Source: Candidatus Nomurabacteria bacterium GW2011_GWB1_43_19 (GTDB lineage: Bacteria > Patescibacteriota > Minisyncoccia > Phycocordibacterales > UBA9973). Taken from it: a DNA stretch of 47,695 nt. The position numbers were made by a program, and so were the translations under genes. Below, one piece after another: positions 15,045 through 47,584 of this stretch. The notes beneath the pieces were generated by a model. The model was not told the origin of the DNA. It searched no databases and worked only from the letters and a program-made list of their open reading frames with translations. Positions within the stretch are counted from its first letter, which is position 1. Each line of letters opens with the position of its first letter. The stretch covers positions 1 through 47,695 of the forward strand of contig LCGB01000002.1 in NCBI GenBank assembly GCA_000999465.1, written 5' to 3'.

Positions 15045-15086
15045 CCACAGGTCGGACCTAGGGAGTTCCCCTAGGTCCGACCTGTG
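15045..15086 (+). repeat. 19-bp perfect hairpin before rplC
   Basis: Arms 15045-15063 and 15068-15086 are perfect complements with a 4-nt loop. The core is GTCGGAC...GTCCGAC. It ends 10 nt before the rplC ATG at 15097. This is the same family as the palindromes at 16721 and 20833. Confidence 0.9.
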
Positions 15087-15096
15087 GAACAAAATT

Positions 15097-16384: not shown

Positions 16385-16394
16385 AGAAATAAAC

Positions 16395-16430
16395 AGGTGT
16401 TGGACACCGGGATTCGGGTGTCCAACACCT
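16395..16430 (+). repeat. 14-bp hairpin before rplW
   Basis: AGGTGTTGGACACC (16395-16408) and its exact complement (16417-16430), loop 8 nt. It ends 20 nt before the rplW ATG. The same sequence family recurs before rplR at 23219-23252. Confidence 0.9.
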
Positions 16431-16450
16431 GGGATTCATAAAAAAACATT

Positions 16451-16720: not shown

Positions 16721-16766
16721 CCCATAAGTCAGACATATGGGAATTCCCATATGTCTGACTTATGGG
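16721..16766 (+). repeat. 46-bp perfect palindrome before rplB
   Basis: 16721-16743 is the exact reverse complement of 16744-16766. The core is GTCAGAC...GAATTC...GTCTGAC. It begins on the base after the rplW stop and ends 13 nt before the rplB ATG at 16780. Confidence 0.95.
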
Positions 16767-16779
16767 AAACAATAATATT

Positions 16780-17619
16780 ATGAAAACATACAAGCCGACA
16801 AGCAAATCAAGAAGACAGATGACCAACGTGAATTACCGGGGGGTCATTACGACATCAACGCCTACCAAGTCCTTAACCCATGGTTTCAAAAGAAGCGTCG
16901 GTCGCAACAGCCAAGGGCGCATTACCATGCGGCACAAGGGCTCGGGGCACAAGCGCCTCTACCGCGATGTGGACTTTTTATACGACAAGAAAAACGTGCC
17001 GGCGAAAATAAAATCCGTTGAATACGACCCGAACCGCTCGGCCTTTATTGGGCTGGCTGTCTACAAGGACGGAGAGAAGAGGTATGTTGTTCTGCCCAAA
17101 TCGGTTAAAGCCGGGAGTTCGTTTACCGTTTCGGACAAGGCCCCGCTGGAAGCGGGCAACCGCCTGCCTCTGAAAAACATTCCGGTTGGAACCTTTGTTT
17201 ACAACGTAGAAATCAAGCCCGGCGGCGGCGCCAAAATCGGCCGTTCGGCCGGAATCTTCGCGCAAGTCGTTGCCAATGCCGAGGGCTATACCAATTTGAA
17301 AATGCCTTCCACCGAGGTCAGAAAAATAAACGAGAATTGCTGGGCTTCCGTCGGCACCGTTTCCAACGAAGAGCATCATCTGGAAAATTACGGTAAAGCA
17401 GGCCGTAGCCGCTGGAAAGGAATTCGCCCGACGGTCCGCGGAACCGCGATGAACCCGGTGGATCATCCCTATGGAGGAGGAGAAGGCAGGCAAGGCAGGG
17501 GAACCAAGCGTCCGAAGACGATGTGGGGCAAGGTAACCGGCGGACGCAAGACCCGCGGACCAAAGAAATACTCAAATATCTTTATCGTCTCCCGCAGGAA
17601 GACTGGTAAAAATAAATAA
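16780..17619 (+). CDS. rplB: Ribosomal protein uL2
   Basis: uL2 supports the peptidyl transferase centre. 279 residues from the ATG at 16780 (MKTYKPTSKSRRQ); an ATG at 16762 inside the palindrome gives six extra residues and was rejected. RHKGSGHKRLYRDVDF, the GRAGRSRWKGIRPTVRG-type segment and MNPVDHPYGGGEGR with the key histidine are all present. Normal length. The next ribosomal gene, rpsS, is 405 nt away, separated by an inserted unit. Confidence 0.97.
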   Translation: MKTYKPTSKSRRQMTNVNYRGVITTSTPTKSLTHGFKRSVGRNSQGRITMRHKGSGHKRLYRDVDFLYDKKNVPAKIKSVEYDPNRSAFIGLAVYKDGEKRYVVLPKSVKAGSSFTVSDKAPLEAGNRLPLKNIPVGTFVYNVEIKPGGGAKIGRSAGIFAQVVANAEGYTNLKMPSTEVRKINENCWASVGTVSNEEHHLENYGKAGRSRWKGIRPTVRGTAMNPVDHPYGGGEGRQGRGTKRPKTMWGKVTGGRKTRGPKKYSNIFIVSRRKTGKNK

Positions 17620-17622
17620 AGA

Positions 17623-17678
17623 TGTTATAATGCGGATGGATTTGGTTCTTTCTCGCTTTCCCAGGCGAAACCAAATCC
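17623..17678 (+). promoter_or_regulatory. Promoter and 5'-terminal hairpin of the inserted mini-gene
   Basis: TGT-TATAAT (17623-17631) predicts +1 at 17638. GGATTTGGTT starts exactly there (17638-17647) and pairs with AACCAAATCC (17669-17678). The transcript would begin with this stem, directly followed by the SD. Confidence 0.65.
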
Positions 17679-17692
17679 GAGGAGGATAGACA

Positions 17693-17857
17693 ATGTCCAA
17701 TCACATTTCGGCGCAGAAGCGCCGAAAAAACGGTCGGTGGCCTATGGAACGTGAGGCCGCCGAACAGGCCGCGAAAGCGACCAAGGAGGCTCCTCCGGAG
17801 CCTCCTCGGATGTACTTGAACCGCCCCCAACCGGTTACACGGTTCGACCGGCGCTAA
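17693..17857 (+). CDS. SD-led 54-residue basic protein inserted in the S10 cluster
   Basis: Small gene: ATG at 17693, TAA at 17855. The SD AGGAGG (17680-17685) is 7 nt from the ATG, textbook spacing and nearly unique in this window. The product is very basic and polar: it starts MSNHISAQKRRKNGRWPMER, has an Ala/Glu/Pro-rich middle and ends in PVTRFDRR. No known domain is recognised. The stretch is GC-rich compared with its neighbours, has its own promoter, 5' hairpin and terminator, and splits rplB from rpsS. It looks like a late insertion, possibly from another replicon. Confidence 0.6.
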   Translation: MSNHISAQKRRKNGRWPMEREAAEQAAKATKEAPPEPPRMYLNRPQPVTRFDRR

Positions 17858-17912
17858 GCCGGTCACCCCCTCCGGCTGACTCTATCTAACAGTCAGCCTC
17901 ATTCCCATCCAG

Positions 17913-17957
17913 AGGGGCGCTCGTCGAGTGTATTCTCCGAGCGCCCCTTCCCACCTT
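17913..17957 (+). terminator. Hairpin terminator of the inserted mini-gene
   Basis: AGGGGCGCTCG (17913-17923) and CGAGCGCCCCT (17938-17948), 11 bp, followed by a pyrimidine-rich CCTTTTATTT. Smaller hairpins precede it: ACCGGC/GCCGGT around the stop codon and CTGACT/AGTCAG near 17877-17895. Confidence 0.65.
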
Positions 17958-17968
17958 TTATTTCACAA

Positions 17969-18023
17969 TTGACATTTTACGCTTATTTGTTAGTATGAAA
18001 TCAAGCTCGTTAGGGGCTTTTTT
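17969..18023 (+). promoter_or_regulatory. rpsS promoter with 5' hairpin
   Basis: TTGACA (17969-17974), 16 bp, TAGTAT (17991-17996) in the context TTTGTTAGTAT, identical to the tuf promoter. Predicted +1 at 18003 opens AAGC (18003-18006), which pairs with GCTT (18016-18019) and is followed by T runs up to one base before the ATG. Confidence 0.65.
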
Positions 18024-18024
18024 C

Positions 18025-18381
18025 ATGACCAGGTCAATCAAAAAAGGATTAAATGTTGATGAACGGCTTCTTAAAAAGATTGCGGGCAAAAACCCGCTTT
18101 CCACCCCGATGATCAAGACCTGGAAAAGGGCCTGCGTGATTTCTCCGGAAATGCTTGGTTTCACTTTCGGCGTCTATAACGGCAAAACGCATGTGGAAGT
18201 TCTTGTTACCGAAGACATGGTTGGACACAGATTGGGCGAATTTTCCCCGACCAAGAAATTCATGAAGCACGGCGGAAAGATGCAGAAAGAGCTGGAAATG
18301 AAAAAGAAAGAAACGGAAATCGCTCAAGCCAAGTCCGCCACTGCGGCGGCTGCAGATGCAAAAGACGCAGTAAGCAAATAA
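18025..18381 (+). CDS. rpsS: Ribosomal protein uS19 with C-terminal extension
   Basis: uS19 is a 30S head protein. From the ATG at 18025 (MTRSIKKG) it has 118 residues. An earlier ATG at 17995 is inside the promoter and is rejected. The conserved block RACVISPEMLGFTFGVYNG and GHRLGEFSPTKKFMKHGG is intact. The last 25-30 residues are a helical, Ala/Lys/Glu-rich tail not found in ordinary S19 (about 92 residues). It heads the second half of the ribosomal cluster from its own promoter. Confidence 0.94.
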   Translation: MTRSIKKGLNVDERLLKKIAGKNPLSTPMIKTWKRACVISPEMLGFTFGVYNGKTHVEVLVTEDMVGHRLGEFSPTKKFMKHGGKMQKELEMKKKETEIAQAKSATAAAADAKDAVSK

Positions 18382-20832: not shown

Positions 20833-20875
20833 CCCTATGTCAGACTTAGGGGAATCCCCTAAGTCTGACATAGGG
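20833..20875 (+). repeat. 20-bp perfect hairpin before rplX
   Basis: Arms 20833-20852 and 20856-20875 are exact complements with a 3-nt loop. The core is GTCAGAC...GTCTGAC. It ends 11 nt before the rplX ATG. Confidence 0.93.
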
Positions 20876-23218: not shown

Positions 23219-23252
23219 AGGTGTTGGACACCCGAATTCCGGTGTCCAACAC
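23219..23252 (+). repeat. 12-bp hairpin before rplR
   Basis: GTGTTGGACACC (23221-23232) and GGTGTCCAACAC (23241-23252), loop CGAATTCC. It shares nearly the whole sequence of the rplW palindrome at 16395-16430. It ends 16 nt before the rplR ATG. Confidence 0.9.
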
Positions 23253-46910: not shown

Positions 46911-46939
46911 ACAAACTTGTCTCAGAATGACAAGTTTGT
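46911..46939 (-). repeat. Hairpin spanning the stop codon of the secreted protein gene
   Basis: ACAAACTTGTC (46911-46921) pairs with GACAAGTTTGT (46929-46939); the TGA stop is within the loop/arm. Confidence 0.75.
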
Positions 46940-47584
46940 GATGATGTAGACCCTGACGAAATCTCTGTCGTGGCCTTTTTTGAATTGATAGGTGGTTACT
47001 AACCCCACCTTCAGCGCTTTGGCCCTTACAGGGAGGGGAAGGGGAAGAACCACTCTCGGGCCGATGCTGTGAGCATTGGTTTTCCCGAAGGAATGGATGT
47101 GTTCCGTCTCCACACCGGCCCGCATTCTCCACATATGCACTGGAGTATCCGCTGCAACCCACCAGAAAAATCTCTTTCTCTCGTTTCTGAAGGATTGCTG
47201 GATCTCGCCGGCGATTGCCACATGCGGAACTTGGTTGTTCACGAACCGCATGTTAAGAATCGAGTCCTTGTAGCCGTTCTGGTCGCGCTTTTGTCCCACA
47301 AGAAGCTCCAACCAGTTTTTCTTGTCGTGTTGCCATACGAAGCCACCGACAAGAAGCGTTGCTAGGCCATTATCTTTTACCGTTCCATCCGGTAGAATGT
47401 TCTCCGCCGTCACATCCGGTAGTATTCCCCAGAAGGCCAGACCGAAGCGGTTTTTTGTCTCGGGGTCGGCCTTGGGGAGAACCTGGATGTGAACGGGGAT
47501 GCGCACCTGGGGGTCCGGCCCCTCCTGAGCGAATACCGAAGTCGGGAGGAGGGCCAAAAACAGAAGCCAAAACATTGATTTCAT
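46922..47584 (-). CDS. SD-led secreted beta-rich protein, barrel-like
   Basis: 220 residues. MKSMFWLLFLALLPTSVFA is a clear Sec signal peptide with cleavage before QEGPDPQ. The rest alternates hydrophobic and polar residues (beta strands, e.g. LATLLVGGFVWQHDKKNW, FFWWVAADTPVHMW) and ends in ITNLSF, with a terminal Phe as in outer-membrane barrel proteins. The AGGAG SD is 7 nt before this ATG, while a GTG at 47587 would be too close. GC-rich, next to a transposase end. CPR cells lack a classical outer membrane, so transfer is suspected. Function unknown. Confidence 0.7.
   Translation of the reverse strand: MKSMFWLLFLALLPTSVFAQEGPDPQVRIPVHIQVLPKADPETKNRFGLAFWGILPDVTAENILPDGTVKDNGLATLLVGGFVWQHDKKNWLELLVGQKRDQNGYKDSILNMRFVNNQVPHVAIAGEIQQSFRNERKRFFWWVAADTPVHMWRMRAGVETEHIHSFGKTNAHSIGPRVVLPLPLPVRAKALKVGLVTTYQFKKGHDRDFVRVYIITNLSF

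Follow-up and report, generated by a model that had tools for sequence, protein, structure and literature searches.

Small basic ribosomal proteins such as bTHX, bL34 and bL36 are short and strongly basic, are encoded in or beside the ribosomal protein cluster, and form families that keep their sequence. SgrS/SgrT is a dual-function RNA, a structured transcript with a small ORF. Here we analysed a compact unit between the genes for the ribosomal proteins L2 (rplB) and S19 (rpsS) in a Candidatus Nomurabacteria bacterium with a 623-kb genome in 24 contigs. The window, by which we mean the whole stretch of DNA that was analysed (47,695 nucleotides), is contig C2 of this genome. Among named sequences, its rplB is closest to those of Candidatus Nomurabacteria metagenome genomes. 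In the window, the rplB stop codon lies at 17619, a complete mini-gene follows at 17623-17960, and rpsS comes next, with its own promoter.

An earlier note on this DNA had described the unit as self-contained, and its TGTTATAAT promoter, 5'-terminal hairpin, perfect AGGAGG and 54-codon ORF could indeed all be read in the sequence (Table 1). The predicted transcription start, at about 17638, coincides with the exact base of the 5'-terminal hairpin, within which an inner hairpin carries TTTCCCAG. The combination AGGAGG-N4-10-ATG occurs a single time in the window, in this unit. By itself, the AGGAGG-N-ATG motif is no rarer than expected by chance; when the 349-bp stretch was dinucleotide-shuffled 5000 times, an ATG ORF of 54 codons or more behind an AGGAGG appeared twice. 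The unit is also as unusual in composition and codon use as had been stated, with a GC content of 0.59 across its transcript compared to about 0.45 downstream, and a codon preference of the ORF unlike that of the host (0.016 versus 0.08-0.16). The gene at 46922-47584, said to share the style of the Shine-Dalgarno sequence (SD), does so roughly, its SD being AAGGAG and not AGGAGG. The 11-bp terminator of the earlier note has the perfect arms ascribed to it, but we grade it as just a likely terminator because the T-tract after the hairpin is poor. An antisense ORF of 94 codons lies at 17582-17866.

Table 1. Features of the unit and of the start of the rpsS transcript (positions in the window)
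Feature	Position	Strand	Basis or remark
Extended -10 promoter TGTTATAAT	17623-17631	+	Read directly; directly after rplB stop
Weak -35 CTGGTA	17603-17608	+	Inside rplB
5'-terminal hairpin GGATTTGGTT...AACCAAATCC, 10-bp outer stem	17638-17678	+	Folding, arm search
Perfect Shine-Dalgarno AGGAGG, 7 nt ahead of ATG at 17693	17680-17685	+	Read directly
ORF, 54 aa (MSNHISAQKRRKNGRWPMEREAAEQAAKATKEAPPEPPRMYLNRPQPVTRFDRR), net charge +7	17693-17857	+	TAA at 17855-17857
ORF-internal hairpin TTTCGGCGC/GCGCCGAAA, 9 bp, perfect	17706-17727	+	Folding, arm search
ORF-internal hairpin GGUGGCCU...AGGCCGCC	17734-17763	+	Folding
ORF-internal hairpin; 3' arm region CCTCCTCGGAT at 17801-17811	17784-17806	+	Folding
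Hairpin GACCGGC/GCCGGTC, stop codon in loop	17846-17864	+	Sequence, folding
3' hairpin GGCTGACT/AGTCAGCC	17874-17898	+	Folding, arm search
Terminator-like hairpin AGGGGCGCTCG/CGAGCGCCCCT, perfect 11-bp arms, modest T-rich run after	17913-17948	+	
rpsS promoter TTGACA (17969-17974), 16 nt, TAGTAT (17991-17996)	17969-17996	+	Conserved in congeners
5'-terminal hairpin of rpsS transcript AAGCTC-GTTAG-GGGCTT	18003-18019	+	52/52 leaders found by search

That rpsS begins from a promoter of its own, as claimed earlier, was borne out. TTGACA-n-TTTGCTAATAT-n-AAGCTCGTTAGGAGCTTTTT is conserved ahead of rpsS through the genus, while the sequence before it varies, and it is the predicted promoter that drives rpsS. 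The rpsS transcript, like that of the unit, is predicted to start at its own 5' hairpin. This hairpin (AAGCTC-n-GAGCTT) shows the exchanges AGGCTC/GAGCCT and AGGCC/GGCCT, with A-T and G-C pairs swapped, and is a possible conserved ribosomal protein leader. In the region 17995-18024, the longest rpsS ORF takes its start from an ATG within the promoter of rpsS; S19 probably starts at 18025. Within this Nomurabacteria genus, a transcription boundary between rplB and rpsS is native. Elsewhere in the ribosomal protein cluster, near-perfect palindromes with related cores (GTCAGAC, GTCGGAC and TTGGACACC) lie in the spacers at 15045-15087, 16394-16431, 16721-16766, 20833-20875 and 23221-23252. They may form a family of short palindromic repeats and also lengthen predicted ORFs, for example at the N-terminus of the rplC ORF.

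We searched 80 genomes of the genus, counting the window's own. The surroundings of rpsS were obtained from 77 genomes, and the distance from rplB to rpsS could be measured in 62, the window's genome among them, with one further locus being unusable (labels such as L055 denote congener loci, and L231-L263 order-level relatives). The rplB-rpsS spacing, which the earlier note had proposed to check in relatives, ranged from 72 to 2098 bp over the 62 congeners. A unit that is built alike and differs in sequence is present in the gap in 29 of the 62, a tally made partly by eye because weak SDs and leaderless cases such as L056 escape the automatic caller. The congener units consist of a promoter, often a 5' hairpin (for example GTGGACTTTTAGTCCAC in L040 and GTGCACTGCTTACGCAGTCCAC in L084), an SD (GGAGG), a short Lys/Arg-rich ORF and a GC-rich terminator hairpin, which ends the unit directly ahead of the rpsS promoter. 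Their promoter combines TTGCNTTATTTT, a spacing of about 17 nt and an extended -10, and occupies the position that the promoter has in the window. The TTGCNTTATTTT -35 is missing from some congener units and was not found in the window's own genome, where the extended -10 stands alone. The pattern TTGCNTTATTTT-N4-10-TATA gave 23 matches in the 80 genomes, 9 of them in the rplB-rpsS gap or just upstream of rpsS, and its reversed control gave 13. The window's unit agrees with this design in lying between rplB and the rpsS promoter, in having its own promoter, and in its SD-led short ORF with a net positive charge (+7 in 54 aa). Elevated GC is no rule of the class, with a mean of 0.465 in 21 unit gaps versus 0.452 in rplB. 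DnaA-box-like sequences (TTATCCAC/TTTTCCACA) are located just upstream of the unit promoter in L041, L047, L066, L080, L082, L087 and others, and are not present in the window.

In 50 rplB-rpsS gaps of at least 250 bp, an automatic caller looking for SD-led ORFs of 18-95 aa returned 39 from the coding strand, compared to 7 from the opposite one and 3.7 for each shuffled set. When K+R had to reach at least 25%, the corresponding numbers were 24, 0 and 0.25; the window's ORF, which contains acidic stretches, lies just below this bar with a K+R of 0.24. In a control of about 400 kb of DNA sampled from the window's and eight other genomes, with about 99 intergenic gaps of at least 150 bp, SD-led ORFs with a K+R of at least 0.3 were confined to the rplB-rpsS gap. 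We also mapped unit presence on a species tree made from L2 and S19, in which many branches are weak. The curated list required 6 changes (shuffled mean 20.7, minimum 16) and the automatic list 11 (shuffled mean 16.5, minimum 11); hence, units follow clades in the curated list, and the automatic list gives just a weak trend in that direction.

Overall, the signals and their order, the position, composition and folding, the congener units, their clustering on the tree and the excess of basic ORFs are all features of the sequences themselves, and the unit is real and probably functional. We consider it moderately likely that the window contains its copy of a genus-wide rplB-rpsS unit, a gene complete in itself that encodes a small, polycationic and probably disordered protein. 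It is probably a lineage-specific, fast-diverging gene, whose product we infer to bind RNA and to be made from a stable, structured mRNA. Transcription from the extended -10 would begin at the base of the 5' hairpin and thereby give a protected mRNA end, the strong SD would drive translation and, with a stable mRNA, lead to high output, and the internal and 3' hairpins may add to mRNA stability or serve as binding sites for the product. As a polycation lacking a conserved fold, the protein could act on RNA, be it the ribosome, rRNA or its own mRNA, with the nucleoid as another candidate target, and its sequence could drift almost freely because it would bind RNA mainly through charge. A bolder version, which we hold to be less likely than not, is that the gene product is selected just for shortness and positive charge, and its mRNA for folding, and that the pair evolves past sequence recognition between sister species. 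As part of the same tentative version, such a gene, positionally fixed in the ribosomal protein cluster, might represent a ribonucleoprotein-like pair of gene and transcript.

The earlier note had overlooked the strong folding of the whole unit RNA, which has a free energy of -159.9 kcal/mol and a z of -12.6 (-10 in a separate run). The ORF RNA had a value of -77.9; permuting its codons 300 times gave -56.8 +/- 4.4 and never so low a value. The ORF's z of -5.2 is the most extreme of 30 ORFs from the window and congener units, which had a mean z of -1.9 against synonymous permutations, while control stretches of rplB and rpsS gave -0.04 +/- 1.02 (n=126). Such folding would be expected of a structured non-coding RNA, possibly dual-function, in which the ORF is incidental or secondary, and the codon use unlike that of the host and the second unit of L087, which appears ORF-free, are consistent with this alternative. 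It is nevertheless unlikely in view of the SD-led Lys/Arg-rich ORFs, which occur across congeners far above chance, and of L056, where the basic ORF is kept without an SD. In addition, the unit hairpins are conserved among congeners neither in sequence nor in place, and the unit and 19 congener loci gave sub-threshold, chance-like matches alone in Rfam 15. The 5' hairpins of the window's unit, L055 and L066 have the loop T[TA]TCCCAG in common, but a shared RNA element was rejected, three cases being too few and MAFFT being unable to align them.

Looking up the 54-aa protein and the whole unit in CPR and phage data, as the earlier note had advised, yielded no relative. The protein gave a single chance-level match and nothing else against 41 relatives, no relative in GTDB contigs, viral contigs or phages, and no match in Pfam, NCBIfam, PHROGs (loose thresholds) or any PDB chain. 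The unit DNA gave chance matches of 15-36 bases and nothing longer against the 80 congeners, and no match in phages. Compared to the congener unit proteins, the window protein reached a z of 2.6 at best, with no significant alignment, and the L055 ORF, which looked similar by eye, was dropped as it fell outside the eight best-scoring comparisons. A few of the 969 protein pairs exceeded a z of 5, a weak similarity between some congener units (L084/L075, from one clade, with 5.6, and L066/L062 with 5.4); L068/L048 was also among the top pairs and was discounted for its very low raw score. In the sister species L084 and L086, most codons of the units differ, while 536 bp of the gap have 85% DNA identity. 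The small protein of L048 had a sub-threshold match to DUF7239 (E 8e-4, 20 bits versus a cut-off of 24.6). A search of the open-access literature found no paper describing such an rplB-rpsS unit.

The missing congener homologue, the high GC and the codon use unlike that of the host could also indicate a cassette recently inserted at a tolerant spot, and the gap does take other genes in some congeners. L056, L057, L063, L084, L085, L086 and L090 carry cargo that we named by eye as HicB/HicA-like and Phd-RelE-like pairs, a NUDIX-like gene and a GIY-YIG-like gene, and the rplB-rpsS junction also tolerates ordinary small genes. We regard a foreign cassette as quite improbable, given the same architecture and place in many congeners, the clade-wise presence, a promoter mostly at this locus, the lack of matches in phage, viral and GTDB collections, and unit ends without flanking direct repeats beyond short chance ones. 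The earlier note had seen an intruder splitting a conserved gene order; the variable spacing, the genus-wide rpsS promoter and the like units in congeners argue against this, and the claim is further weakened by related Paceibacteria families, in which the junction is open too, with 47 bp to more than 2.9 kb between the two genes. Open junctions are frequent outside the genus, with hundreds of bases to >2.9 kb in Taylorbacteria, Kaiserbacteria and others; in Giovannonibacteria, Harrisonbacteria, Azambacteria and Portnoybacteria the gap measures 1-68 bp, and other phyla mostly stay below 100 bp. Among the order-level relatives, many Paceibacteria families have a wide gap where a few bases are usual. 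In the open junctions of the extra-genus relatives examined, the caller reported no strongly basic SD-led ORF. Native origin had been tied to finding the same unit at this place in all relatives, with the host's own codon use: the design is shared by many, but the sequence is not, and the codon preference of the window's ORF is unlike that of the host. The unit is native in kind and orphan in sequence, and an intruder is the less likely reading.

A cis-acting leader or attenuator for rpsS would fit a structured element directly upstream of rpsS, with an SD/anti-SD alternative in which 17801-17811 is perfectly complementary to the SD region at 17675-17685. We rejected this switch, as the SD-paired fold falls short of the optimum by 12 kcal/mol. 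Between the unit and rpsS lie the terminator-like hairpin and the separate, conserved rpsS promoter with its 5' hairpin. A leader role is very improbable, since rpsS is supplied with its own promoter even where a congener lacks the unit (L029, L036 and L072). Decaying or chance sequence, which an orphan protein might suggest, is hardly credible given the rarity of such an ORF in shuffles, the intact and ordered expression signals and the class-wide statistics.

Homology-based annotation is blind to genes of the kind we favour here, as each copy looks like an orphan; position, promoter and composition revealed them as a class beside the ribosome genes in very reduced genomes. The locus also cautions that orphan and foreign-looking are different things. 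Very reduced genomes would not be expected to keep a strongly expressed unit that is dispensable, and one can now test whether the ribosome or nucleoid of these bacteria includes disordered polycations as a functional component.

Like SgrS/SgrT, the window's unit has a structured transcript in which a good SD precedes a small ORF; unlike SgrS/SgrT, it has no RNA family match, much of its structure lies inside the ORF, and no conserved RNA core was found. With bTHX, bL34 and bL36 it shares a short, basic product and a place adjoining ribosomal protein genes, but the unit proteins vary in sequence and match no ribosomal Pfam model (ten small proteins of the set scanned, the window's included). 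Orphan or de novo small genes are likewise lineage-restricted and short, have no homologue, and have their own promoter and terminator. The unit differs from them in that its sequence does not recur, whereas its position, promoter type and amino-acid composition recur across the genus.
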